30,054 nt of DNA, from the IMG/VR virus record IMGVR_UViG_3300010885_003859, positions 1 to 30,054 of that record; one strand, 5' to 3'. The notes beneath the pieces are model-generated. The model made no database searches and had not been told where the DNA came from. It saw nothing but the letters and a program-made list of their open reading frames with translations. Shown here piece after piece: positions 685 through 23,092 of the stretch; positions within the stretch are counted from its first letter, which is position 1, and each line of letters begins with the position of its first letter. Made by a program: the position numbers and the translations under genes. This DNA comes from a virus.

Positions 685-1758
685 ATGAGAGTAGCAATTA
701 TAACGGATCAACATTTCGGTGCCAGGAATGATAGTATTACATTTCTAGACTTCTATGAAAAATTCTACGACGGAACTTTCTTTCCGTCACTAGTGGCTAA
801 CAATATCAATACACTACTAATACTTGGTGATACATTTGATAGGCGTAAGTATGTAAACTTCTTAACACTAAAGAGATCAAAGGAAATGTTATTTGATAAA
901 CTACAATCATTGAATATTAAAGTACACATGCTGGCAGGTAACCACGATACGTTCCATAAGAATAGTAACAACATTAATTCGGTTGATCTACTATTGAATG
1001 AATATCCAAATGTGAATGTAATAGATTCCCCACAGACCATTATTGTTAATGGAGTATCTATCTGTATGATCCCTTGGATATGTGCAGATAATTATCAAGA
1101 ATGTCTGGATGAGATCAATAATACCAAAGCACTAATCTGTATGGGACACTTCGAGATAGCGGGATTCTCTATGTATAGAGGTATGGCCGCACATGATGGA
1201 TTAGAGCGATCAATGTTCAGAAAGTTCATGAACACATTCTCTGGACACTATCACCACAGATCTAGTGCTGATAGCATATATTACCTCGGCAATCCGTACC
1301 AATTAACGTGGTCAGATTATGAGGATGTTCGCGGGTTCCACTTGTACGATGTTCAGAATTTTGAACTAGAATTTGTACCAAACCCTAATGATATGTTCTT
1401 TAAGATCACATACAATGACATCAAGGCTAAAACATATCTACCGAAACGATTACAGGAATTATCACAATACACTAACAAATACGTCAAGGTTGTTGTACTA
1501 AACAAGATAAATCCCCACCTATTTGATACATTTATGGATAATCTATATAGTGTTAATCCCATTGATGTTACTATCATCGAAGATATTATAGACTTGACTG
1601 AGAACGGTAGTGATGATATAATAACTCAATCAGAAGACACTTTGCAAATACTGAACAAGTTTGTTGATTCTGTACAAGAAGATAACATCGACAACTCTAG
1701 GTTGAAGGGTATCTTGCATGAAATATATGTCGAAGCATTGAATAGTGAACGTGTATGA
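685..1758 (+). CDS. 47: Recombination nuclease subunit gp47 (Mre11-like)
   Basis: Nuclease subunit of the phage Mre11/Rad50-type complex that processes DNA ends for recombination-dependent replication and host DNA degradation. The product is 357 residues (T4 gp47 339). The calcineurin-type metallophosphoesterase motifs are complete: D8-x-H10, G48-D49 with D52, G85-N86-H87-D88, H155, and G187-H188-Y-H190. A strong Shine-Dalgarno, GGAGGT at 676-681, precedes ATG 685, 11 bases after the gp55 stop. Its stop TGA overlaps the gp46 ATG (ATGA at 1755), so the two subunits are translationally coupled, as in T4. Confidence 0.93.
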   Translation: MRVAIITDQHFGARNDSITFLDFYEKFYDGTFFPSLVANNINTLLILGDTFDRRKYVNFLTLKRSKEMLFDKLQSLNIKVHMLAGNHDTFHKNSNNINSVDLLLNEYPNVNVIDSPQTIIVNGVSICMIPWICADNYQECLDEINNTKALICMGHFEIAGFSMYRGMAAHDGLERSMFRKFMNTFSGHYHHRSSADSIYYLGNPYQLTWSDYEDVRGFHLYDVQNFELEFVPNPNDMFFKITYNDIKAKTYLPKRLQELSQYTNKYVKVVVLNKINPHLFDTFMDNLYSVNPIDVTIIEDIIDLTENGSDDIITQSEDTLQILNKFVDSVQEDNIDNSRLKGILHEIYVEALNSERV

Positions 1759-3473
1759 TTATTTTTAAAGTCCTGAGATATAAAAATATATTAAGCACCG
1801 GTAATGTGTTTACAGAAATAAAGCTTAATTCTAGTAAGAACACCCTCATAATTGGATTTAATGGATCTGGAAAAAGTACTATGCTGGATGCATTATGTTT
1901 CGTTCTGTTCGGGAAACCGTTCAGAAAGATCAATAAAGGCAATCTGCTAAACAGTGTTAATGCTTCTAATGGTGTAGTGGAGGTTGAATTTGTTATAGGC
2001 ACCAAAGAATATAAGATAATCCGAGGCATTAAACCCAATATATTCGAAATATATTGTGGAGGTGTTATGATAAACCAGGACGCCAAGGCCAAAGATTATC
2101 AGGATTATCTAGAGAAAGTTATTCTGAAACTGAACTTCAAATCATTCACACAAGTGGTAATATTGGGTTCAGCGTCTTTTGTACCATTCATGCAATTATC
2201 AGCTGCTGATAGACGTGCTATCATTGAAGACCTATTGGATATACAAATATTCTCATCTATGAATTCATTGGTAAAGGAAAAGTTATCCACCATTAAAGAT
2301 GAATCGTCCAACAACAAGTATGAGTTGAACATAACAGCAGAAAAGATAAAACTACAGAAGAAGAACATAGATGAACATAAAAAGCACAATGATGAAGAAG
2401 TTGCTAGAAAGCTGGGCGAAATTGAAACTTCTAAACTACAGAATGAACGTCTACTTGCTGATGGTGTATTAATACAACAGCACATAGAAACTCTACAGAA
2501 AAAGATAGATGATAAACTTTCTGTAGAAACGAAATCTAGAAAGATGATACAAATGGAGGCTAAACTAGAGTCTAGTATTGATTTAATCAATAAAGATATA
2601 GCGTTTTATCATCAGAACGATGACTGCCCAACGTGTAGACAAGTGCTGGATGTTGACTTTAAAACTAGCCAAGTTACTGAAAAGACTACTAAACTAGTAC
2701 AAATCAACAAAGGTGTTAATGAGATATCTTCCGAAATAAAACGATTGAACGAAAGACTTGCTGAAATACAAGGAATTAACAAACAGATTACTCAACACAA
2801 CAATGAAATAGTTAGTAATAATTCTACAATATCAGCAATGAATCAGTACATATCTAAGATAAACCGTGAAATTGAATTGTTATCTGTTCGTAAAGACACT
2901 ATAGAAAATGATAACGGATCTCTTATTGAGATGGTAGAACATCTGCAAAAGATCATGACCGAACAAGAAAGACTATCCAACGAGAAGCAATACTATGAAT
3001 ACGCATCTAATCTACTGAAAGATACAGGCATCAAGACTAGAATAGTAAAGCAATATCTACCAGTAATGAACAAGCTAATCAACAAGTACTTGTCGGCAAT
3101 GGATTTCTTCGTGAACTTCAATATAGACGAAAACTTTGATGAAACCATTAAGTCTAGACATCGCGATGATTTCAAGTATACTAACTTCTCGGAAGGTGAG
3201 AAAACTAAGATAGACCTAAGCTTATTGCTAACATGGCGACAAGTTGCTAAGATGAAGAACTCAACCAATACTAATATATTGATAATGGATGAGATACTAG
3301 ATTCTTCTATGGATGATGCTTCTATAGATAATCTGTTTAAAATATTTGAAGAATTTGATGACGACACAAATCTATTCGTGATTAGTCATCGTGGTGATCA
3401 TTTATTTGATCGATTTAGATCAGTAATAAAATTTGAAAAGAGTGGGAATTTCTCACGAATAGCTAAACTATAG
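1755..3473 (+). CDS. 46: Recombination nuclease subunit gp46 (Rad50-like ATPase)
   Basis: SMC/Rad50-type ATPase partner of gp47, 572 residues (T4 gp46 560). Walker A GFNGSGKST is at 34-42. A central predicted coiled coil (about 170-440) is interrupted by a zinc hook, C291-P-T-C294. The ABC signature FSEGEKT starts at 478, and Walker B LIMDE has D512-E513. The gene begins at the ATGA overlap with gene 47. The intact hook and all ATPase motifs indicate a functional enzyme. Confidence 0.93.
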   Translation: MIIFKVLRYKNILSTGNVFTEIKLNSSKNTLIIGFNGSGKSTMLDALCFVLFGKPFRKINKGNLLNSVNASNGVVEVEFVIGTKEYKIIRGIKPNIFEIYCGGVMINQDAKAKDYQDYLEKVILKLNFKSFTQVVILGSASFVPFMQLSAADRRAIIEDLLDIQIFSSMNSLVKEKLSTIKDESSNNKYELNITAEKIKLQKKNIDEHKKHNDEEVARKLGEIETSKLQNERLLADGVLIQQHIETLQKKIDDKLSVETKSRKMIQMEAKLESSIDLINKDIAFYHQNDDCPTCRQVLDVDFKTSQVTEKTTKLVQINKGVNEISSEIKRLNERLAEIQGINKQITQHNNEIVSNNSTISAMNQYISKINREIELLSVRKDTIENDNGSLIEMVEHLQKIMTEQERLSNEKQYYEYASNLLKDTGIKTRIVKQYLPVMNKLINKYLSAMDFFVNFNIDENFDETIKSRHRDDFKYTNFSEGEKTKIDLSLLLTWRQVAKMKNSTNTNILIMDEILDSSMDDASIDNLFKIFEEFDDDTNLFVISHRGDHLFDRFRSVIKFEKSGNFSRIAKL

Positions 3474-3482
3474 GATAAACAC

Positions 3483-4052
3483 ATGAGTGATGTAATAACA
3501 TTTAATACAGAAGAACTAGCTAAACCACTATCAGCAAAAACTCCTGATGTGTTTGAGTTGATATATGGACCACTTAACACTACACCATTGAATGATTTTA
3601 ATTTTGAACTTTTTGGGACTGATGCAAATCTATTTGCATCAACACTGGTCGATACATGTAAAAAACATAATGGTCTAGGACTATCAGCCAACCAGTGTGG
3701 GTTTCCACATAGAGTTTTTGTTATGGGGTCTGGCGACGAATATGTGGCATTCTTTAATCCAAATATAGTCACTATATCAGAAACGACCATTAAATTGGCA
3801 GAGAATACATTAACAATACCATTCCTAGAGCTAAAAGTGAAACGTCCCATCTCAATTGAAGTTGAATATCAAGACTTTAATGGTATAGTGCATCAGCAAT
3901 TCTTTGGTGGACTGTCTGCAAGGATATTTCAGCAACAACTAGATAATCTTAATGGGATTATGTTCATTAATCATGCTAAACCTCTATCAATAGAGAGAGC
4001 AATAAAAAAACAGAAAAAAATGCTGAAACGATGTGGTATGCGTGCAAGTTAA
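3483..4052 (+). CDS. Peptide deformylase homologue lacking all active-site residues (pseudoenzyme)
   Basis: The fold is recognisable as peptide deformylase, the metalloenzyme that removes N-formyl groups from nascent proteins and is often carried by marine T4-like phages. The product is 189 residues. Motif 1 is kept: GLGLSANQ at 64-71, with the conserved Gln71. Motif 2, normally E-G-C-L-S, reads E107-N-T109-L-T, so the Cys metal ligand is Thr. Motif 3, normally Q-H-E-x-D-H, reads Q150-Q151-Q152-L-D-N155, so both His ligands and the catalytic Glu are gone. The frame is intact. The C-terminus (171-189) is strongly basic (KKQKKMLKR). The fold call is fairly secure and loss of canonical activity is a strong inference. 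The role is unknown; ribosome binding without catalysis is one possibility. It lies 9 bases after gp46, and the next gene starts at the base after its stop. Confidence 0.8.
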   Translation: MSDVITFNTEELAKPLSAKTPDVFELIYGPLNTTPLNDFNFELFGTDANLFASTLVDTCKKHNGLGLSANQCGFPHRVFVMGSGDEYVAFFNPNIVTISETTIKLAENTLTIPFLELKVKRPISIEVEYQDFNGIVHQQFFGGLSARIFQQQLDNLNGIMFINHAKPLSIERAIKKQKKMLKRCGMRAS

Positions 4053-5609
4053 ATGAAAAAATTTATCGAGGAACACTGTTTAACAAAAACCAACAATCTT
4101 AACAATCGTTCATGTGCGGAACTTTGGTGGTCAATACGAAACTATCATTCAGAATTTAAACAGATAAATTATTTAACTAGCTTCCTTGATGAATACTCAC
4201 CATCATTTGCAGAAAGATTATATGTCGTTGTTAATGGGATATCTAATAGAAAATTGTGCAAAAGCTGTGGTAAATTTTGCAACTTTAATAATTATAAAAA
4301 TGGGTATTATACCTATTGTTCAACATATTGCTCTACACAATGCGCAGACAGAAATATCAAGATACACACTAATAGAGACTATGATAAGATAACAGAAAAA
4401 ATGCGTGCTACTAACCTAGAGAGGTATGGTGTAGAATATACAACACAGTCTCAAAATATGATAGATAAGACATTCGAGACTAAATTAGACCGATACGGAG
4501 ACCCAAATTATAATAACCAAGATAAATCTAAACAAACGTGCCTAGAGAGATATAGGGTGGAATTTTCAGCACAAGATCGCGGTATTATCAACAAAATCCA
4601 ATACAATAAAGAAATCCTTTACCCTCAACTGAGAGATAAAGATTGGCTGATAAAAGAGAACAGCACTAAGTCAGTAACCACTATATCAGAAGAGCTTGGA
4701 TGTACATATAGAACAGTTTATCTATACTTCGAAAAATATAACATAGAAATGAACTCATTCTATTCTACTCACTCTAAGTCTCAAAATGAAGTATTCGAGT
4801 ATATTTCTTCTATATACAACGGAAGAATACTTCAGAACGATAGAGTTGCAATAGGGCCTAAAGAGATTGATATATATTTGCCTGATATAAATTTAGGTAT
4901 CGAATATAATGGTATGTATTGGCACGCAGAAGATAGTAAGAGACACCTAGATAAACATGATCTATGTAAGAACGAAGGTATAACTCTTGTTCAGATATGG
5001 GATCATGAATGGAATACTAAAAAAGATATAATCAAATCTATAATATCATCCAAGATAGGAAATACAGAAAGGGTGTTTGCCAGAAAATGTTCTATTATTG
5101 ACGTCACATCTAAAGATTACAAAAACTTCTTAAACACTAATCATCTACAAGGTAACGTTAACTCCTCTATTAGAAAAGGTCTTATGTATGGAGGAAAGTT
5201 AGTTTGTGTGATGGGACTAGGCAAAAGTAGATTTGATAAAAAATGTTCACATGAGTTATTGAGATTTGCCAACAAATTAAACATCACAGTAATAGGGGGT
5301 TTTGATAAACTGCTGAACTGTGTATTGACATCATATGACATACAATCATTACAAACCTTTGCCGATATGAGATTGTTTAATGGCTCTGTGTATGAAAGAT
5401 CTGGGTTTGTATTCTCACACAACTCTAAACCTGGATATGTTTATTATAAGAGTAACGTTATAAAAACACGTCAAGATTTCCAGAAACATAAACTAAGCAA
5501 GGTGTTTCCAAACTTCGACGCTAATTTGAGTGAAAGAGAAAACACATCTATAAACGGATGGAGAAGAGTATATGATTGTGGTCAATCAGTTTTTATAAAG
5601 ACCATTTGA
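4053..5609 (+). CDS. Hef-like homing endonuclease with Vsr-type nuclease domain
   Basis: Free-standing homing-endonuclease-type protein of 518 residues. Residues 69-97 hold a cysteine cluster (C69-x2-C72, then C89, C93, C97), probably a zinc-binding module. Three degenerate repeats follow, around NLERYGVEYTTQSQ (121-134), TKLDRYGDPNYNNQ (143-156) and TCLERYRVEFSAQ (162-174). A putative helix-turn-helix lies at about 205-228. The nuclease core, EIDIYLP at 271-277 and LGIEYNGMYWHAE at 281-293, matches the Vsr/EDxHD-type fold with likely catalytic E271, D273, E284 and H291; VQIWDHEW at 313-320 is the usual following strand. These proteins cut allelic sites to spread their own gene. The ATG starts right after the deformylase stop, with no linker and no obvious Shine-Dalgarno. 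Its TGA stop lies inside the -35 box of the next promoter. Confidence 0.8.
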   Translation: MKKFIEEHCLTKTNNLNNRSCAELWWSIRNYHSEFKQINYLTSFLDEYSPSFAERLYVVVNGISNRKLCKSCGKFCNFNNYKNGYYTYCSTYCSTQCADRNIKIHTNRDYDKITEKMRATNLERYGVEYTTQSQNMIDKTFETKLDRYGDPNYNNQDKSKQTCLERYRVEFSAQDRGIINKIQYNKEILYPQLRDKDWLIKENSTKSVTTISEELGCTYRTVYLYFEKYNIEMNSFYSTHSKSQNEVFEYISSIYNGRILQNDRVAIGPKEIDIYLPDINLGIEYNGMYWHAEDSKRHLDKHDLCKNEGITLVQIWDHEWNTKKDIIKSIISSKIGNTERVFARKCSIIDVTSKDYKNFLNTNHLQGNVNSSIRKGLMYGGKLVCVMGLGKSRFDKKCSHELLRFANKLNITVIGGFDKLLNCVLTSYDIQSLQTFADMRLFNGSVYERSGFVFSHNSKPGYVYYKSNVIKTRQDFQKHKLSKVFPNFDANLSERENTSINGWRRVYDCGQSVFIKTI

Positions 5610-5634
5610 CAACTCATATAAAATGTAGTATAAT
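5606..5634 (+). promoter_or_regulatory. Sigma-70-type promoter for the 5669 glycosyltransferase
   Basis: TTGACA at 5606-5611, a 17-bp spacer, and TATAAT at 5629-5634 are exact consensus boxes. Downstream the sequence reads TATAATATACCTTT, a pattern shared with other promoters here. The -35 box overlaps the TGA stop of the endonuclease gene. Confidence 0.85.
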
Positions 5635-5668: not shown

Positions 5669-6466
5669 ATGGAAATATCAATTAAAAAAGAAGAATTACA
5701 AAAGAAAAGTTTGTTCGTTGCCACGCCAATGTTTGGAGGTCTTAACCACGGTTTGTATATGAAGTCTTGCCTAGATCTGCAAGGTCTCTGTATGCAATAT
5801 GGTATCGAAATTAAGTTCTCGTTCCTGTTTAATGAAAGTTTGATTACTAGGGCACGCAACTATCTTGTGGATGAGTTTGTACATAGATCAGAGTGCACGC
5901 ATTTATTGTTCTTGGATTCAGACATTCATTTTGATCCAAAAGATGTTATCACATTATTAGCATTAGATAAAGATGTTATTGGTGCCCCATATCCAAAGAA
6001 AGCCATTAAATGGAAATCGGTAAAAACTGCACTAACTAAAAATCCAAACATAGACGCAAACGACCTAGAGAATGTTGTTGGTGACTATGTATTCAATCCA
6101 GTAAAAGGTACTGATCAATTTTCGGTAACTGAACCGTTAGAAGTATTGGAAATTGGTACTGGGTTTATGTTGATCAATAGAACAGTATTCCCTAAGTTTG
6201 AAAAAGAATATCCACTTCTTAGATACAAACCAGATCATGTTGGTCAAGCTAACTTTGATGGCACACGATATATTCATGCATACTTTGACACAATCATCGA
6301 TAAAGATTCTGAGCGGTATTTGAGCGAAGATTACATGTTCTGCCAATTCTGGCGTAATATGGGTGGCGAAATTTGGTTATGTCCTTGGATGCGAACTAGT
6401 CATATTGGTACATATCATTTCAAAGGTGATATGCCAGCCGTAGCAAATTTTGTTGGGGAGCTATAA
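5669..6466 (+). CDS. Glycosyltransferase-like protein (GT-A fold)
   Basis: Predicted nucleotide-sugar transferase of 265 residues. The N-terminal strand SLFVATPMFGG (14-24) and the nucleotide-binding loop FNESLITRARN (54-64) lead to THLLFLDSDIHF (77-88), whose D83-x-D85 is the metal-binding DxD of GT-A enzymes. The end, WLCPWMRTSHIGTYHF, is typical of a glycosyltransferase group in marine T4-like phages. It is the first gene behind the 5606 promoter and so likely early. The acceptor (host polysaccharide, DNA or virion) cannot be told from sequence. Genes nearby are nucleotide metabolism and replication, and there is no hydroxymethyl-pyrimidine synthase in the window to suggest a DNA acceptor. 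Confidence 0.7.
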   Translation: MEISIKKEELQKKSLFVATPMFGGLNHGLYMKSCLDLQGLCMQYGIEIKFSFLFNESLITRARNYLVDEFVHRSECTHLLFLDSDIHFDPKDVITLLALDKDVIGAPYPKKAIKWKSVKTALTKNPNIDANDLENVVGDYVFNPVKGTDQFSVTEPLEVLEIGTGFMLINRTVFPKFEKEYPLLRYKPDHVGQANFDGTRYIHAYFDTIIDKDSERYLSEDYMFCQFWRNMGGEIWLCPWMRTSHIGTYHFKGDMPAVANFVGEL

Positions 6467-6467
6467 T

Positions 6468-6974
6468 ATGACTGGTAATGGGGCTGCACATGATCCAAAC
6501 GACACTAATGCTGTTGAAATGTATCCAAATTACTACAATTATAGTAAAGAACCTAGTCCAACAGGATCAATAACAGCTTCCTCAACTGGATCACAAGAAT
6601 TAGGGACGCGAACTAGTCATGTTTCTGGTGCCGGTTTCAATTTTGGAGGTGTTTCAACTGTGGATCACAGCATAGAATGTAAGAGTTCGGAACATGGTAG
6701 AAAGTTCGACCAAAACAAGTTGGAATATGGGTTAGTGCCACCAATTGGATTCAAAGCAGTAGTAGAGATCCTAACACTAGGTGCTCAGAAATATGATAGG
6801 GATAACTGGAAACACGTCCCCGATGGTAAACGTAGATATTTCGATGCCGCAATGAGACACTTGTGGGACTGGAAAAGTGGAGAACGATTCGATGAAGAAA
6901 CATCCAAGAACCATCTAGCACATGCTATTTGCAATTTAATGTTCTTATTAGAGAAAGATTTGTTGACAGAATAG
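6468..6974 (+). CDS. dATP/dGTP diphosphohydrolase-like protein (DUF5664/MazZ family)
   Basis: The C-terminal half matches the phage dATP/dGTP diphosphohydrolase N-terminal family (all-alpha, MazG-related): KFDQNKLEYGLVPP at 79-92, GAQKYDRDNW at 105-114, HLWDW at 131-135, and the DEETSKNHLAHAICNLMFL helix at 142-160. Such enzymes hydrolyse purine dNTPs and adjust the precursor pool. Relatives work with PurZ in 2-aminoadenine phages, but no purZ is present here. Residues 1-75 are an unusual Ser/Thr/Gly/Asn-rich extension. I chose ATG 6468 because GGGGAG lies just upstream, one base after the preceding stop codon. The product is 168 residues. Confidence 0.72.
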   Translation: MTGNGAAHDPNDTNAVEMYPNYYNYSKEPSPTGSITASSTGSQELGTRTSHVSGAGFNFGGVSTVDHSIECKSSEHGRKFDQNKLEYGLVPPIGFKAVVEILTLGAQKYDRDNWKHVPDGKRRYFDAAMRHLWDWKSGERFDEETSKNHLAHAICNLMFLLEKDLLTE

Positions 6975-7967: not shown

Positions 7968-8543
7968 ATGGAGCCAACAATTATTGATGATTTCATACCG
8001 ATAGCATACCAAGATTCAATCCTTGGTATGCTAACTGGACATGAATTTCCATGGAACATTCATCCGTATTCAGTAAGTCGAGCACCAATTACCGATTATT
8101 ATACGGATGTTCCTACTAAAGATCATATACAATTTAGACACATGTTCATGGAGGACGATGTATCACATAGTAAATTTTGTGAGTATATGAAACCATTAAC
8201 CATGTGTTTTGAAAATATATATGGATCTATAGAAACTCGGCAGAGGATCAAGGCTAATTTGTTAATGAAGCAGGATGGTCCACACTTACAACATCCACAT
8301 AGTGATATAGGTGGAGTTGGCACCAACAGTAAAACTCTGTTATACTATGTAAACGATAGTGATGGTGATACTGTTTTATATAATGAATATTATTATGAAT
8401 CTACAATCGGGCTATTGACACGACAGCAAACAATATCCCCAAAAAAAGGTAGGGCTGTTATATTTGATTCACATCAGATACACTCCGCGTGTTGTCCTGC
8501 TATCAGCGATTATAGAATTGTCATTAACATGATATTAAGTTAA
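7968..8543 (+). CDS. 2-oxoglutarate/Fe(II)-dependent oxygenase-like protein
   Basis: Double-stranded beta-helix dioxygenase of 191 residues. The iron facial triad is H111-x-D113 (HPHSD at 109-113) and H172 (SHQIHSACC). R183 (SDYRIVIN) sits where the 2-oxoglutarate-binding Arg is expected. The overall layout resembles prolyl-4-hydroxylase-like phage oxygenases. The substrate is unknown; protein, nucleobase and small-molecule hydroxylation all occur in this superfamily. It is inserted between clamp and clamp-loader genes, which are adjacent in T4, and is probably transcribed with them from the 6963 promoter. Confidence 0.75.
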   Translation: MEPTIIDDFIPIAYQDSILGMLTGHEFPWNIHPYSVSRAPITDYYTDVPTKDHIQFRHMFMEDDVSHSKFCEYMKPLTMCFENIYGSIETRQRIKANLLMKQDGPHLQHPHSDIGGVGTNSKTLLYYVNDSDGDTVLYNEYYYESTIGLLTRQQTISPKKGRAVIFDSHQIHSACCPAISDYRIVINMILS

Positions 8544-11364: not shown

Positions 11365-11391
11365 AAAGCCACTATGAATAGTGGCTTTTTT
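11365..11391 (+). terminator. Strong intrinsic terminator
   Basis: AAAGCCACTA (11365-11374) and TAGTGGCTTT (11379-11388) form a perfect 10-bp stem around a TGAA tetraloop, running into a T-tract to 11391. It closes the unit ending with the 64-residue ORF, directly before the next promoter at 11403. Confidence 0.88.
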
Positions 11392-11402
11392 GTGTCTACA
11401 AT

Positions 11403-11431
11403 TTGACACAAACCACTTCGTGTGTTATAAT
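11403..11431 (+). promoter_or_regulatory. Sigma-70-type promoter for the metallophosphoesterase
   Basis: TTGACA at 11403-11408, a 17-bp spacer, and TATAAT at 11426-11431 with an extended -10 (TGT before the box). It continues TATAATATCACTTT. The -10 box ends 30 bases before ATG 11462. Confidence 0.87.
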
Positions 11432-11461
11432 ATCACTTTCACTCAATTGAATAGGTATACT

Positions 11462-13054
11462 ATGAATAATTGTCCTAATTGTAACTCTACTAATTTCATA
11501 AAAAAGGGCACCGAAATCTCTAATGGTGTGTTGAGACAACGACACAAATGTAAGGATTGTTCGGTGAATTTCTATGACCCACCATCACCAACTATTAGGC
11601 AACGATTGCCCGATCCTGTTATTGGTAATGGCTCTATTCAATTTGAAGATGTGTATGGTGATTACAATGGTATTGTCATCACTTCGTGCTTGAATAATAC
11701 AGAAGTTTTTGGCGAGTTCTTGTCTGGTTTGGAGAAATATTGCGACAAAAAGAACTACAAATTGTTCATTATTGGAAACAGATATAGAAACCCATCTATG
11801 GATGGTGATGATATGGTGTGGCCACAAGAGGCAGTCCCACACATTCTATCCGAAAACGTAAAATACAAAGATAAGTTTAAGATCATTGGTGATTGTAACA
11901 TACAAGCTACTGCTACTAATCCTCTAACTGGCATCGATGGTATCTGTGAAGGCATGACCACTATTGTCGGTCACCCAGTAGTTCAAATGAAATCTATTGC
12001 TGTTAATTCGTGGCGTGATAGTATTATATTACACTCTACCGGTAGTATATCATTAAAGAACAACTATAGCGCGAGCAAAGCTGGGCATCGTGCACAATTT
12101 CATCATTGCTTTGGTGCTGTCGTTATTGATCTCGATAAAGATAATGATATATTCTTCATTAGACAATTGTTGTCTGATAAATCTGGAACATTCCATGATT
12201 TAGATGAACAGTGGGATTCTACTGGATTTGTTGACTTTTCGGAAATTGATGCTATATATACCGGTGACGAGCATGTAATATTTGCTGATAAAGAAGTCGT
12301 TGAATCTACATATGGCGTTGGTGGTATCGTGGATCGATTAAAACCGAAATATATCATTCGCGGAGATATTATAGACAGTTATAGTATTTCACATCACCAC
12401 ATGAATGATTTCTTTACTAGGTGGAAGAAACACCAGGTGACACAGAACGGATCATTGAGAGAAGAATTGAAAATATCATTGGATCATGTGTTCGACACCA
12501 CGCCTAGCTTTGCGCAAACACTTATAGTTGGTTCTAATCACGATGATCATATAGATAAATGGTTGAACATTAGTGACCCTAAATTTGATTACGTTAATGC
12601 TGAAATTTATCATCAGCTAATGTATTTGAAACTGACTGATATTAGGAGTGGTTTAGGTAGATCAGCACTTGAAATTTACCTAGAAAATGTACACAAACCA
12701 ATGTTGTCTCCTATCGACGCATGGGATAGTGTACAATTTATTTCTCCTGGGTTTGCTCTACATGGTATTACATTATCGATGCATGGCGATGCTGGTCCTA
12801 ATGGGTCCAGAGGTTCAGTACAGAACTTGTCTAAAATTGGCGAGAAATGTATCATTGGACATTCACATACACCCGCAATTGTTGGTGGTGCTTGGTGTGT
12901 TGGTACATCTTCGTTAAAGAAAATGGACTATACAAAAGGTCCGTCTAGTTGGTTACATACACATTGTATTATCCACAAGAACGGTAAACGTCAACTTATC
13001 ACTATTATTGATGGTAAGTGGAGAATTGAACATAACATTGAGAGAAAATTATGA
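11462..13054 (+). CDS. Zinc-ribbon metallophosphoesterase
   Basis: Product of 530 residues. An N-terminal zinc ribbon (C4-x2-C7 ... C30-x2-C33) resembles the InsA/transposase-type ribbon that binds nucleic acid. The C-terminal half carries a full metallophosphoesterase set: D269-E-H271, G301-D302 with D305, N359-H360-D, H441 and G466-H467-S-H469. A nuclease is likelier than a phosphatase, given the ribbon and the placement among replication genes (inference). The layout recalls the T5 pre-early A1 family of phage phosphoesterases, which I could not compare directly. ATG 11462 is chosen because the promoter lies at 11403-11431, so any further upstream start would be outside the transcript. The stop overlaps the next ATG (ATGA). 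Confidence 0.72.
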   Translation: MNNCPNCNSTNFIKKGTEISNGVLRQRHKCKDCSVNFYDPPSPTIRQRLPDPVIGNGSIQFEDVYGDYNGIVITSCLNNTEVFGEFLSGLEKYCDKKNYKLFIIGNRYRNPSMDGDDMVWPQEAVPHILSENVKYKDKFKIIGDCNIQATATNPLTGIDGICEGMTTIVGHPVVQMKSIAVNSWRDSIILHSTGSISLKNNYSASKAGHRAQFHHCFGAVVIDLDKDNDIFFIRQLLSDKSGTFHDLDEQWDSTGFVDFSEIDAIYTGDEHVIFADKEVVESTYGVGGIVDRLKPKYIIRGDIIDSYSISHHHMNDFFTRWKKHQVTQNGSLREELKISLDHVFDTTPSFAQTLIVGSNHDDHIDKWLNISDPKFDYVNAEIYHQLMYLKLTDIRSGLGRSALEIYLENVHKPMLSPIDAWDSVQFISPGFALHGITLSMHGDAGPNGSRGSVQNLSKIGEKCIIGHSHTPAIVGGAWCVGTSSLKKMDYTKGPSSWLHTHCIIHKNGKRQLITIIDGKWRIEHNIERKL

Positions 13055-17464: not shown

Positions 17465-18794
17465 AGAATATTTGCGAAAAGTATTACCATTTCTAAATGC
17501 GGAATATTTTGAAAGTAAGAACGAACGCGCTATATTCAATGAGATTTTCGAATTTACTACTAAATATAATTCACCACCACCAATAGAATCACTAAGAATT
17601 TCTGTAGATGAACTAAACGTATCACAAGACGAGGTTGTTGCGCTTAACGTTTATATCAATGAACTCGAGGTCGTCACTGCCGAAGAATCTAAAATAGAAT
17701 GGCTAATTGATAAAACGGAAGAGTTTTGCCAAGATAGAGCGGTATATAATGCACTAATGGCATCAATAAATATCGTCGATGGGTCTGATAATATAAACGA
17801 CAAAGGCAGTATTCCCAAGATATTAACCGATGCGCTAGCAGTATCATTCGATAATTCAGTCGGACATGATTACCTCGAAGATTCTTCTGATCGTTATGAC
17901 TTCTATCATAAGAAGGAAAGTAAGATACCGTTTGATTTGGAATTTTTCAATAAAATTACTAAGGGCGGGTTATCCACGAAAACACTTAACGTGATTCTTG
18001 CTGGTACTGGCGTTGGTAAATCCTTGTTTATGTGCCATGTCGCGGCTAGTTGTATGGCTATGGGTAAGAATGTACTATACATTACATTAGAAATGGCAGA
18101 GGAACGTATAGCCGAGCGTATTGACGCAAATTTACTGAACGTGACTATGGATGAATTGATGGCATTAACCAAAGAATCATACATGAAAAAGGTTGATCGG
18201 GTTCGTTCTAAAACTGTTGGTAAACTTATAGTAAAAGAATATCCAACAGCATCGGCGTCATCCGCACACTTTAGGACATTATTGAATGAATTGAATCTGA
18301 AACGTGGATTTTCTCCCGATATAATATTCATAGATTACTTAAACATTTGCTGTAGCTCAAGATTGAAAGTTGGGTCTAATGTTAACTCATATACATACGT
18401 TAAAGCAATTGCCGAAGAATTGCGGGGATTAGCCGTTGAATATGATGTACCATTAATGACAGCAACACAGACTACACGAAGTGGGTTTAGCTCGTCGGAT
18501 CCCGGCATGGAAGATGTCAGTGAATCGTTTGGACTGCCAGCCACAGCTGATATGATGTTCGCACTAATCTCTTCGGAAGAATTAGAGGAACTGGATCAGA
18601 TAATGGTTAAGCAACTTAAAAATAGATACTCCGACCTAACACACTATAAACGATTTACTATTGGCATCAATCGATCAAAGATGAAACTATATGACACAGA
18701 ACAATCTGCTCAGGATGATATTGTAGATTCCGGTCAAGTTTTTTCATCTAATACTAAACCACAAAAGAAAGACTTTGGGAATTTTAAAATATGA
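17421..18794 (+). CDS. 41: Replicative DNA helicase gp41
   Basis: Hexameric 5'-3' DnaB-family helicase that works with primase gp61 on the lagging strand. The product is 457 residues (T4 gp41 475). The N-terminal domain starts MNIRQVILKNLIHNEEYLRK, much like T4. RecA-core motifs are Walker A AGTGVGKS (194-201) and Walker B IIFIDYLN with D305; ATQTTRSGFSSSD and DVSESFGLPATADMMFAL are typical helicase motifs. The start lies inside the preceding gene (44-base overlap), but the family N-terminus supports it. The stop overlaps the ATG of the glycosyltransferase at 18791. Confidence 0.93.
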   Translation: MNIRQVILKNLIHNEEYLRKVLPFLNAEYFESKNERAIFNEIFEFTTKYNSPPPIESLRISVDELNVSQDEVVALNVYINELEVVTAEESKIEWLIDKTEEFCQDRAVYNALMASINIVDGSDNINDKGSIPKILTDALAVSFDNSVGHDYLEDSSDRYDFYHKKESKIPFDLEFFNKITKGGLSTKTLNVILAGTGVGKSLFMCHVAASCMAMGKNVLYITLEMAEERIAERIDANLLNVTMDELMALTKESYMKKVDRVRSKTVGKLIVKEYPTASASSAHFRTLLNELNLKRGFSPDIIFIDYLNICCSSRLKVGSNVNSYTYVKAIAEELRGLAVEYDVPLMTATQTTRSGFSSSDPGMEDVSESFGLPATADMMFALISSEELEELDQIMVKQLKNRYSDLTHYKRFTIGINRSKMKLYDTEQSAQDDIVDSGQVFSSNTKPQKKDFGNFKI

Positions 18795-19504
18795 CGGCTA
18801 CAGTGATAATACCCACTACAGGTGCTCCTGAATTAAGAACAGCTATTGCATCTGTTCTTGGTCAGAGCACAGATACACAATGTCTTGTTGTGTGTGATGG
18901 CACACAATTTAAAGGCAAAACTAGTGCTATCGTTAGTGAATACCTCGGAAACAAAAATCTAAAAGTGTGTTATCTTAATGATAATGTTGGTGCTAATGGT
19001 TATTATGGTCATAGAATATATGCAGCATTCAGTCACTTGATTAATACTACATATGTATTGTTCTTAGATCAGGATAATTGGTTTGAAAATAATCACGTAA
19101 AATATTGTATAGATACCATAGAAGATAATAATCTAGATTGGACATATTCACTAAGAAGAATATTCGATAAAGATGGTACTTATGTATGTGATGATAATTG
19201 TGAATCTCTCGGTAGCTGGGATTCATGTGGTAGATACAAACACATAGATACCAATTGCTACTGTCTACATACAAACGTTGCCACTCATGTTGCCAGTGTA
19301 TGGCACGGTGGGTGGGGACAAGATAGGGTATATCGTGATGTGCTAATGACAAACTACCCAAAGTACATAGGCACAGGTGTACATACAGTTGCATATAGAC
19401 TTGCTGGAAATGATGGTTCTGTATCCAAAGAATTCTTTGATCAGGGCAACAAATTTATGAACGACAAATATAATGGAGAATTCCCGTGGCTAAACAAAGT
19501 TTAA
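18791..19504 (+). CDS. Family 2-like glycosyltransferase
   Basis: GT-A-fold glycosyltransferase of 237 residues. TATVIIPTTGAPELRTAIAS opens the nucleotide-sugar domain; QCLVVCDGT marks the second strand; YVLFLDQDNWFE (89-100) holds the DxD-type D93-Q-D95. It lacks membrane segments and is short, so it is probably cytoplasmic. It is coupled to gene 41 by ATGA and opens the six-gene sugar/methyl cassette. Donor and acceptor are unknown. Confidence 0.78.
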   Translation: MTATVIIPTTGAPELRTAIASVLGQSTDTQCLVVCDGTQFKGKTSAIVSEYLGNKNLKVCYLNDNVGANGYYGHRIYAAFSHLINTTYVLFLDQDNWFENNHVKYCIDTIEDNNLDWTYSLRRIFDKDGTYVCDDNCESLGSWDSCGRYKHIDTNCYCLHTNVATHVASVWHGGWGQDRVYRDVLMTNYPKYIGTGVHTVAYRLAGNDGSVSKEFFDQGNKFMNDKYNGEFPWLNKV

Positions 19505-20340
19505 TTATTGGTGCCGCAACTGGTTACAACTACAACCAGTTAAAACCTTGGATTGAATCTATCAATGAATGTGGATTTGAAGGTGATAAAGTTCTTGTAT
19601 TAGGACAAGCATCAGAAGAAACACGAACAAAGATACTAGAACAAGGATTCAAGATTGTAGAAATGATTGCAGTTGATGCACCAATTCATGTTGCTCGATT
19701 CTTGTCTATCTACGACTATCTGAAAGATACATGGCAAGACTACGAATACGTCATCACCACCGATGTCAAAGATGTTTATTTCCAAACAAATCCTGTAGAT
19801 TGGTTGAGTGAATGTCTACCTCCTTGTAAACTAGTTGCTGGATCAGAATCTATTAGATACAAAGATGAGTCTTGGGGCAACCAAAATCTACTAGAAACCT
19901 ATGGTCCATATGTTCATGAATTATTCAAGGATAATATCATTTATAATGTTGGTACAATTGGTGGTGTGTCTGAATATGTTAAAGATTTGATGTTCAATAT
20001 TTTCACCAATGCTATCAATAGACCGATCCCAATAGTAGACCAGGCGGTTTATAATGTATTGTTGCAAACTGAACCTTATAAATCTAGAACATTCTTTGCT
20101 GATCAATTATATGGTTGGGCATGTCAAGCAGGAACTACTGCTGATCCCAGCAAGATTAAAGGGTTTAGACCATTTCTTACAGAAGCAGAACCCTTCTTCG
20201 AAGACGGTGTGGTTAAAACATATTGGGAAAAACCATTCTGTATTGTTCATCAATATGATAGAGTGCCTGAATGGAAGAAGTTTGTAGAACAGAAATATAA
20301 CCAACATAACGAAAACGATTACTTTACAATCAACACATAA
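19486..20340 (+). CDS. Glycosyltransferase-like protein with DVKDV motif
   Basis: Product of 284 residues, starting at GTG 19486 with GGAGA at 19475-19479; the start overlaps the previous gene by 19 bases. The start SLIIGAATGYNYNQLKPWIE and YVITTDVKDVYFQTNP at 88-103 match a nucleotide-sugar-transferase-like group in which D93 and D96 form the metal motif. IYNVGTIGGVSEYVKDLM and PIVDQAVYNVL correspond to the acceptor side seen in such enzymes. Family assignment is by motif only. Confidence 0.65.
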   Translation: MAKQSLIIGAATGYNYNQLKPWIESINECGFEGDKVLVLGQASEETRTKILEQGFKIVEMIAVDAPIHVARFLSIYDYLKDTWQDYEYVITTDVKDVYFQTNPVDWLSECLPPCKLVAGSESIRYKDESWGNQNLLETYGPYVHELFKDNIIYNVGTIGGVSEYVKDLMFNIFTNAINRPIPIVDQAVYNVLLQTEPYKSRTFFADQLYGWACQAGTTADPSKIKGFRPFLTEAEPFFEDGVVKTYWEKPFCIVHQYDRVPEWKKFVEQKYNQHNENDYFTINT

Positions 20341-20350
20341 GGAAAATACT

Positions 20351-20899
20351 ATGAAATTTAATGATGAGAAATGCTCTGGATATGGTTTACTAGAAACCAT
20401 AAAATCCCTTAAAGGTAAGGTAGTGGGGTGTGAACTTGGTGTCAGCGAAGGATTTAATTTATGCCAAATCCTAGAACATTGTGATAATGTTACATCTATG
20501 TATGCTATAGACCCATATATGCCTTATATGGATTGGTGTGGTGAAATTTCACAATACCGCATAGATGAGAGTAAAAAAATAGCTATGTCAAATTTAGCCT
20601 CTGTTTCACAATCAGAAAAAGTTAATTTTTTGGAAATGACTTCTTCTGAAGCAGTTCTTAAAATTTCTGATAATGAACTAGACTTTGTATTCATCGATGG
20701 TGACCATTCATACGAAAGAGCATCCGAAGACATGTTGAATTTTTATCCAAAAGTTAAGTCTGGTGGCATGTTCTCTGGTCATGACTATAGCCTATCTGGT
20801 GTTAACAGAGCACTATGTGAATTTATGCAAAAACATAGTTACGACGCTTCCAACCTTAAACTAGTATCTAATGATGCATGGTACATCATTAAACGATAA
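20351..20899 (+). CDS. Class I SAM-dependent methyltransferase
   Basis: Product of 182 residues with a Rossmann-fold methyltransferase layout: motif I GCELGVSEGFN at 26-36, the acidic residue D54 ending strand 2 (YAIDPY), and motif IV LDFVFIDGDHSYE at 110-122, then a post-IV segment KSGGMFSGHDY. FIDGDHSYE is typical of the Methyltransf_24-like group, often found in glycan biosynthesis loci. Likely a sugar O-methyltransferase from context (inference). GGAAA lies before the ATG, 10 bases after the upstream stop. Confidence 0.72.
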   Translation: MKFNDEKCSGYGLLETIKSLKGKVVGCELGVSEGFNLCQILEHCDNVTSMYAIDPYMPYMDWCGEISQYRIDESKKIAMSNLASVSQSEKVNFLEMTSSEAVLKISDNELDFVFIDGDHSYERASEDMLNFYPKVKSGGMFSGHDYSLSGVNRALCEFMQKHSYDASNLKLVSNDAWYIIKR

Positions 20900-20900
20900 T

Positions 20901-21707
20901 ATGACAAATATTACAATAGTAACCGCATTTTTCGATATTGGTAGAGGTGACTGGACTCCTGACAATGGTCTTCCTGAATACCTCCAGCGCACAACCGATA
21001 CATACATTGAACGATTTACTCATCTTACTAAGCTGAAAAATGAGATTGTTGTTGTTACAACTCCAGATATAGGAAAAATGCTTAAATGTATCAGAGATGA
21101 TATTAAGATCATTGAGTTTGATCCGTTCAAACAGTTCGAAGAAATTAGTAAAAAAATTGTTACCATACATAATAGTGAGATTTTCCAAAATCTAATACAT
21201 CCTAGCCAGATAAGGAACCCAGAATACTGGAGCGAGAAATATGTATTGGTTAATTTACTGAAATCTCACTTTGTTAATATGGCTATACAGAAAGAGATGG
21301 TGACAAACAACACTATTGCTTGGTTAGATTTTGGATATTGCAGAAGTAAATCCACCCTACCAACAAGCTTAAAGTGGTCTTATGATTTTGATCCCACAAA
21401 AATACACTTGTTCTCATATAAAGATATTGACACAACTCGTAAGATAACAGACATAATCGCATCGAATGATGTACACATTTTAGGTGCTAAAATTGTTGCA
21501 GACAAAAAACTTTGGCTAGAAATGGAAACTAAGATGTTTGATGCTTTTGATTTTTTGTATATTAATGGTCTCGTTGACGATGATCAAACATTAATGCTAC
21601 TATGTGCATCAAAAGAACCAGACAAGTTCCAGCTACACAGAATACCAGACCACCAATTAGGATTAGACCCTTTTATAATTTTTAAATATTTTAATAATGC
21701 GGAGTAA
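20901..21707 (+). CDS. WlaTC/HtrL-type glycosyltransferase-like protein
   Basis: Product of 268 residues. The N-terminus TNITIVTAFFDIGRGDW, the later VNLLKSHFVNMAI and TIAWLDFGYCRS, and LKWSYDFDPTKIHLFS are the pattern of the HtrL/WlaTC family found in LPS and capsule loci. I start at ATG 20901, one base after the methyltransferase stop; an upstream in-frame ATG at 20871 would add 10 residues inside that gene and disturb the family N-terminus. No clear Shine-Dalgarno is visible. The exact reaction of this family is not well established. Confidence 0.7.
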   Translation: MTNITIVTAFFDIGRGDWTPDNGLPEYLQRTTDTYIERFTHLTKLKNEIVVVTTPDIGKMLKCIRDDIKIIEFDPFKQFEEISKKIVTIHNSEIFQNLIHPSQIRNPEYWSEKYVLVNLLKSHFVNMAIQKEMVTNNTIAWLDFGYCRSKSTLPTSLKWSYDFDPTKIHLFSYKDIDTTRKITDIIASNDVHILGAKIVADKKLWLEMETKMFDAFDFLYINGLVDDDQTLMLLCASKEPDKFQLHRIPDHQLGLDPFIIFKYFNNAE

Positions 21708-21710
21708 TGA

Positions 21711-22424
21711 ATGAAATTTGATAATGCGATGGAAGAAATCCTTCATGTTTATATGGAAAGAGAGATTTATAAACAAAAAACTGAAATGTGTAAACTGTTT
21801 TCTGATTATCGATCAGATAAATCAACATGGCATAATTACACAACTCTATATAACACGATCTTCATGGGGCTTGAGCTGAAATATAAACCACTGAACTTAT
21901 TTGAAATGGGTCTTGGTACCAATAATACAAGTATAACATCTAATATGGGAGCTAATGCCTCTCCGGGTGCATCAATGAGAGCATTTGCTGACTACTTTCC
22001 AAATGCAAACATATATGGAGCTGATATCGATAAGGATATATTATTTGAAACCGATCGCATAAAAACCTTCTTCTGCGACCAAACTTCACCAGAACTCATA
22101 AAAGAGATGTGGAATAATATGGACATTGAGTTTGATGTTATCATTGATGATGGATTACACGAGCCTCATGCTAATATTACTTTCCTCGAAAATTCTTTCC
22201 ATAAATTGAAAAAGGGTGGGATATTCATAATCGAAGATATTCTAAATAAGGACATATATCCTATCGAGAAATTCTTGAGAAATATTGAGTGTGAATTTCA
22301 AACAATAGTAACTCTCCCAATGGACGAATCTTGGAACATTGACCCTAGCATGATATACCTGCACAACACAAATCTACCAAAAATTAACATATATGATAAC
22401 TCTATGGCAGTGATTGTTAAATGA
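21711..22424 (+). CDS. Class I SAM-dependent methyltransferase (second)
   Basis: Product of 237 residues. Motif I is NLFEMGLGTNN at 62-72, followed by SNMGANASPGASMRAFADYF, then NIYGADIDKDILF with acidic D105, and motif IV FDVIIDDGLHEPHAN (141-155); KKGGIFIIEDI follows. This is the form of phage and bacterial sugar-associated methyltransferases such as those of macrocin/TylF type. It is not close to the 20351 enzyme in detail, so a recent duplication is unlikely. Three bases separate it from the previous stop. Confidence 0.75.
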   Translation: MKFDNAMEEILHVYMEREIYKQKTEMCKLFSDYRSDKSTWHNYTTLYNTIFMGLELKYKPLNLFEMGLGTNNTSITSNMGANASPGASMRAFADYFPNANIYGADIDKDILFETDRIKTFFCDQTSPELIKEMWNNMDIEFDVIIDDGLHEPHANITFLENSFHKLKKGGIFIIEDILNKDIYPIEKFLRNIECEFQTIVTLPMDESWNIDPSMIYLHNTNLPKINIYDNSMAVIVK

Positions 22425-23092
22425 TGAAAAACGTAGTAATTATAACTTCGGCAATAAATGCAAAATTTTCCGCTATAGATGCCGAGACTAGGTACCAAGA
22501 TACATTTAAAACTATTGAATCTGTTCGGAAAAAGATGCCAAATGCTATAGTTGCTATGTTCGAATCTTCCCCACAAAAACTTTCAGATGATATGCTAGAG
22601 GCACTGAAGAATAAAGTTGATGTTTTTATTGTGTTATCGGACGTGCCTAAAGTGAATGAATTGGGTAGTAACAATCAAAAAAGTGCAGCAGAAACACTAT
22701 CACTAAAACTAGCAATAGAACATATAATGACCTTAAATATTCACATAAAAAGGATATTTAAATTAACTGGGCGTGGGTTTTTTTCTGAAGATTTTGATGT
22801 ATCATATTATGATAATCCGGACCTAACAGGTAAATATGTATTTAAGAAGCGCATAGCCTCATGGATGTCACCAGAACTAAGTTTATTAAGTACTCGGTGT
22901 TGGTCTTTTTCTTATGAATTGTTACAGGAAGTGTTAGCTATGCTTGAAAATACCATGACAGGATGTTTGGACACAGGAAGAGATGTTGAACATATCATAT
23001 TTGAAAAGCTAGATACTACAAAATTGGTAGAACTCGAAAAAATTGGATATAATTGCAGAATTTCATTAAACGGAAATCTTGAGTGTGATTAA
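22421..23092 (+). CDS. Putative glycosyltransferase-like protein, last gene of the cassette
   Basis: Product of 223 residues with no sure family. It begins like a Rossmann or GT-A domain (KNVVIITSAINAKF), and RIFKLTGRGFFSEDFD at 111-126 resembles the K-x-x-G-R-Y/F segment of several capsule and phage glycosyltransferases. No DxD is evident. It is coupled to the methyltransferase by ATGATG at 22421 (ATG 22424 is an equally good start). Context suggests a sugar-related role; this is inference. Confidence 0.5.
   Translation: MMKNVVIITSAINAKFSAIDAETRYQDTFKTIESVRKKMPNAIVAMFESSPQKLSDDMLEALKNKVDVFIVLSDVPKVNELGSNNQKSAAETLSLKLAIEHIMTLNIHIKRIFKLTGRGFFSEDFDVSYYDNPDLTGKYVFKKRIASWMSPELSLLSTRCWSFSYELLQEVLAMLENTMTGCLDTGRDVEHIIFEKLDTTKLVELEKIGYNCRISLNGNLECD

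Follow-up and report, generated by a model that had tools for sequence, protein, structure and literature searches.

A clade of phage peptide deformylase homologs with a replaced catalytic centre, proposed to act without catalysis at the ribosomal exit tunnel

The open reading frame at positions 3483–4052 (+ strand) of the 30,054-nucleotide stretch of viral DNA analyzed here (hereafter the window) is open throughout and encodes a 189-aa, full-length homolog of peptide deformylase (PDF). Judged from its sequence, this protein is a PDF homolog by descent and fold that fails to show the catalytic features defining a functional deformylase. We propose that it belongs to a conserved group of phage PDF pseudoenzymes that have no metal site and no general base and are maintained as non-catalytic proteins acting by occupancy of the ribosomal exit tunnel, a reading to which we assign a probability of about 0.5. 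The features on which the analysis draws are as follows:

3483–4052, + strand: predicted PDF pseudoenzyme gene, 189 aa, recognized by profile match, residue positions and predicted fold
3672–3695, + strand: motif I, GLGLSANQ, intact, residues 64–71; Gln71 corresponds to Gln50 of E. coli PDF, the oxyanion residue
3801–3815, + strand: degenerate motif II, ENTLT in place of EGCLS, residues 107–111; Gly89 replaced by Asn108 and Cys90 by Thr109
3930–3947, + strand: degenerate motif III, QQQLDN in place of QHExDH, residues 150–155; His132 replaced by Gln151, Glu133 by Gln152 and His136 by Asn155
3981–4031, + strand: basic C-terminal helix, residues 167–183, assigned as helix by DSSP in the model; corresponds to alpha-3 of E. 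coli PDF, the helix that binds the ribosome
1755–3473, + strand: gp46 (SbcC-like), upstream of the PDF gene here as in the examined relatives
4053–5609, + strand: homing endonuclease (phrog_3339, E 1e-114), in the position of the DruA-like gene of active relatives; listed as context only

The 189-aa protein matched Pep_deformylase (PF01327) with an E-value of 1e-28 and a score of 100 bits (cut-off 22.8) over profile positions 27–153 of 156, and it also matched PHROG 2890 (peptide deformylase). Checking by position placed Thr109, Gln151 and Asn155 at the Cys, His and His metal ligands (C90, H132 and H136 of E. coli PDF) and Gln152 at the catalytic Glu (E133), and in pairwise alignments with the solved PDFs 1lme and 1rl4 these four residues fell on EGCLS and QHExDH without gaps. 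These substitutions and the unbroken GLGLSANQ had been read from the DNA in the original prediction, and both are borne out; the replacement of the motif-II Gly by Asn108, which is invariant in the clade described below, is an extra change absent from that prediction. The possibility that the true PDF motifs lie elsewhere in the protein, which would have undone the prediction, is ruled out both by these pairwise alignments and by the predicted fold.

Searches of IMG/VR identified seven further contigs with the same kind of protein, which together with the window give six distinct proteins. One of these contigs, whose DNA is 99.99% identical to the window over 10 kb, comes from the same virus, L007 encodes a protein identical to that of L006, and the remaining clade proteins are 58–68% identical. 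In all members the motif-II Gly is replaced by Asn, the Cys by Ser or Thr (Thr in the window protein and Ser in the other lineages), the Glu by Gln and the second His by Asn. The first motif-III His is Gln in four of the six distinct proteins and is still His in L005 and L006, a pattern that suggests stepwise loss of the site. Motif I (G-phi-G-phi-[AS]-A-x-Q) is degenerate in L002–L004 (GLSLSGPQ, GLSLSANQ). A search of IMG/VR with a degenerate motif-II DNA pattern returned only the seven known contigs and no new clade members. The Cys, His, Glu and His were retained in 97 of the 97 other family members found in two protein scans, and no further full-length ligand-less PDF was present among the matches listed, which comprised 178 distinct sequences from all loci (motif-I pattern scan included, truncated sequences left out). 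No relatives were confirmed in bacterial genomes. UniProt A0A6J5T6S5 ('Def' of an uncultured Caudovirales phage), which is annotated as an active deformylase, is 59% identical, a value within the range of clade members, and by this identity it is probably a member as well.

The pseudoenzyme clade is monophyletic, with a support of 100 in the PDF tree and also of 100 in the tree of gp46 plus gp47, and in the PDF tree it sits within a large phage PDF family whose motifs are intact. Type 3 or accessory PDFs, which are found in archaea, trypanosomatids and as second copies in S. aureus and S. pneumoniae, have substituted motifs and weak or no activity (PMC12690207, PMC5591237), and by that definition, i.e., substituted conserved motifs, the clade could be called type 3. 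The type 3/accessory PDFs are, however, cellular and their substitutions are described in motifs I and II (PMC12690207, PMC5591237), whereas in the clade motif I is mostly intact and motifs II and III are without the metal ligands and the Glu. Because the clade nests inside the phage PDF family with intact motifs, independent loss appears the more likely, as judged from a PDF tree without type 3 sequences. Inactive cellular PDFs are already known, while the open-access literature searched yielded no PDF pseudoenzyme from phages and no phage clade in which the entire metal site has been replaced.

The gene is part of a T4-like replication module with the order gp47, gp46, PDF gene, homing endonuclease, conserved glycosyltransferase-like gene, sliding clamp, clamp loader, RegA, DNA polymerase and UvsX. 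Its start lies 9 nt past the gp46 stop (3473), and its stop codon is immediately followed by the homing endonuclease ATG (4053); the frame, originally described as overlap-packed, is therefore tightly packed but without overlap. In the active relative L018, a phage-encoded DruA-like protein (PF14236, E 9e-19; a Druantia anti-phage component) is found directly downstream of the PDF (L018:6575–7840). A DruA-like gene adjoins the PDF gene in 88 of 91 active loci vs. 1 of 6 pseudoenzyme lineages (L005), and in the other lineages its position is taken, for example, by the homing endonuclease in the window and by a short separate ORF in L002. A link between loss of the DruA-like gene and the pseudoenzyme was set aside, as the Fisher p is invalid across a tree, the two occur together in L005 and the DruA-like gene is missing from three active loci. 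Several other features of the window were observed. At 5606–5634, a perfect sigma-70 consensus promoter (TTGACA-17-TATAAT, 12/12) separates the homing endonuclease from the glycosyltransferase-like gene at 5669. Positions 6450–6974 encode a dATP/dGTP diphosphohydrolase N-terminal domain (PF18909, E 2e-31), and a 2OG-Fe(II) oxygenase (PF13640, E 3e-7), which only some relatives have, is encoded at 7968–8543 between the sliding clamp and the clamp loader. The 557-aa protein encoded at 11381–13054 has no Pfam match at E 0.01; close to its N-terminus it contains a zinc ribbon of the IS-like kind (CPNC...CKDC), and by eye it seems to carry metallophosphoesterase-like motifs (GDEH, NHDDH, GHSH). Past the replication genes, a run of genes at 18791–23092 resembles glycosyltransferases and methyltransferases by eye and may modify surface or DNA sugars.

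Selection on the gene was estimated with one-ratio codon maximum-likelihood models, most pairwise NG86/YN00 values being not computable with synonymous sites saturated. The omega was 0.082 in the pseudoenzyme clade vs. 0.083 in close active relatives, and 0.034–0.060 for gp46, gp47, gp45 and the glycosyltransferase-like gene of the same phages; with long branches saturated at synonymous sites, the absolute values are rough and the contrast with neutrality is firm. Fixing omega at 1 lowered the lnL of the clade from -2484.7 to -2694.1, a cost of 209 log-likelihood units. L002 and L003, the only pair near enough for simple counting, i.e., unsaturated, gave a dN of 0.045 and a dS of 0.38. N108, Q152 and N155 were constant across the clade despite synonymous codon changes. 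Relative to gp46/gp47, the clade has evolved ~1.6 times faster than the active relatives at the amino-acid level, which we regard as a mild change of constraint. Among the 57 positions conserved in ≥95% of the active relatives (weighted), 39 are unchanged in all clade members and 6 are altered in all of them, 4 of these 6 being in the catalytic centre (p = 0.002 vs. random placement). The dN/dS of homologs, which had been named as a check on the original prediction, is thus 0.08 and not near 1, and the PDF pseudoenzyme is almost certainly kept for a real function.

The AlphaFold2 model of the window protein (pLDDT 90.9) has a complete PDF fold with a C-terminal helix at residues 167–183, and its top hit in the PDB is the actinonin complex of E. 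coli PDF (1lru; E 1e-14, TM 0.82 by target). The model of the active relative L018 has the same fold and superposes slightly better on 1lru (TM 0.90). The fold comparison suggested with the original prediction therefore found the whole PDF fold present; most ribosome-contact positions of the helix are common to E. coli PDF and the window protein, whereas C90, H132, E133, H136 and K150 are all replaced in the latter. On the substrate side, the equivalents of E. coli Gln50 (Gln71 in the window protein), Glu88 and Leu91 are invariant in the clade, and the hydrophobic positions of the S1' pocket are conserved in kind. G45 is Ser in three clade members. Clade-specific invariant residues are found in and around the pocket (N108, E116, Q152, N155 and F161) and elsewhere (Y28 and Q177). 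From the residue changes in motifs II and III, the clade protein is very probably dead as a metal-dependent deformylase. The original call of a pseudoenzyme is supported by the existence of an independent conserved clade, by purifying selection, by the intact predicted fold and by the concentration of the changes in the active site.

PDF docks on the ribosome through its C-terminal helix at a site that overlaps that of MetAP, and most PDF is ribosome-bound (PMC8712518, PMC12690207). E. coli PDF binds uL22 via L149, K150, R153 and K157 and 23S rRNA via K160 and R163 (PMC12690207). In the clade, the equivalents of L149, K157 and K160 are kept and R163 is present as Lys, whereas every member has Ala or Ser at K150 and only the window protein retains R153. 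The active relatives have similar residues at the helix contact positions, and an active Vibrio PDF likewise carries R153M and R163K (PMC12690207). The very basic C-terminus pointed out originally is real but not peculiar to the window protein, as the last ~32–38 residues carry a net charge of +6 to +9 in clade members vs. +8 to +12 in the active relatives. The suggested competition at the ribosome is plausible and receives some backing from the kept positions (L149, K157, K160 and, as Lys, R163), but because these are common to the active relatives, they indicate at most a retained docking surface, not competition. A ribosome-docking surface is plausibly retained in the clade, and retention of the helix may be ancestral, not the reason for the upkeep of the gene.

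Given these observations, we propose the following mechanism. In the sequence, the catalytic centre has given way to neutral polar residues that are almost invariant, with the fold, the substrate-side residues and the helix remaining; the protein would carry out no formyl hydrolysis by the PDF mechanism. It would dock via its C-terminal helix in the PDF site at the exit tunnel, near uL22. By occupying this site it would retain formyl-Met N-termini, keep host PDF and MetAP away, or both, and N-terminal processing would be altered during infection. As the ribosome sites of PDF and MetAP overlap (PMC8712518), both could be affected by a dead PDF. High expression would be required for such blocking, since cellular ribosomes outnumber PDF (PMC8712518). 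Occupancy of the ribosome or the nascent chain is what we tentatively name as the most likely retained function, at a little short of an even chance. That these phages have made their own PDF a dominant-negative exit-tunnel factor on host ribosomes, one that leaves formyl groups on nascent chains or shuts out PDF and MetAP, reshaping the N-terminal processing of host or phage proteins, is possible but doubtful.

Other explanations were weighed against the same evidence. Repurposing of the PDF scaffold to bind some other protein or peptide, of the phage or of the host, off the ribosome, with the old pocket as the binding site, is consistent with the clade-specific invariant residues in, around and outside the pocket and with the mild relative acceleration of the clade, but it leaves the retained Gln50 and Glu88 equivalents and the ribosome-contact lysines without an obvious reason, and we consider it rather unlikely. 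A prozyme-like role, in which the protein binds and modulates an active host or phage PDF without replacing it, is improbable: PDFs are usually monomeric, and no second PDF was found in the same phage in any of the 23 contigs searched, the clade contigs being 6–36 kb fragments. An active PDF should nevertheless exist in the host, and other families are known to include dead paralogs that regulate active enzymes (PMC5201418). The substituted residues are polar and close to invariant, not random, as might be expected of a new metal-free or differently liganded enzyme in the same pocket, yet the four catalytic positions contain no His or acid except His151 in two lineages and no nucleophile-base pair is apparent in the sequence, which leaves such an enzyme with little probability. 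Some supposed pseudoenzymes of other families turned out to be active, and exact PDF motifs were not strictly required in a 2025 survey (PMC12690207); residual deformylase activity via relocated metal ligands is nonetheless very improbable here, with three ligands and the Glu all changed together and a model that aligns along the entire PDF fold and shows no evident substitute motif. The simultaneous loss of several catalytic residues can resemble decay, but a decaying passenger gene or a sequencing or assembly artefact is ruled out, in agreement with the original prediction, by the omega, by frames open in every lineage and by independent assemblies, i.e., the second contig identical to the window at 99.99% and the other lineages with the same changes.

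Among known PDFs, those of T4-like phages (the IMG/VR relatives L008–L105 and those of Stenotrophomonas phage DLP_6, Caulobacter phage Cr30 and Methylophilales phage Melnitz-3) belong to the same family and occupy the same or a similar place in the replication module, and the IMG/VR relatives have a basic C-terminal helix like that of the window protein. Unlike the window protein, all of them keep EGC[LV][ST] and HExDH; their identity to it is ~52% or less for the IMG/VR actives (short best segments up to 56%) and 31–40% for the proteins of DLP_6, Cr30 and Melnitz-3. The PDFs of phage Vp16 and cyanophage S-SSM7 (types 1B and 4) are also phage-encoded proteins of the PDF fold, but they are active, with strict motifs and a C-terminal helix that is shortened or missing (PMC5591237), whereas the window protein has kept the helix and lost the catalytic centre. 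In contrast to the clade, the PDFs of marine viruses and of Vp16 have been described as being without the ribosome-docking surface (PMC5591237).

Automatic annotation calls such proteins 'deformylase', which is a caution. The active, dead and intermediate members at the same gene position provide a natural separation-of-function set. The chemistry has very probably been discarded and yet selection on the protein is strong, which suggests a useful non-catalytic role for the PDF fold in infection. Why phages carry PDF genes was called an "enthralling issue" by the authors of the Vp16 study, who found no distinct substrate specificity (PMC5591237). By extension of the exit-tunnel reading proposed here, non-catalytic ribosome occupancy may be part of the reason why phages carry PDFs at all.
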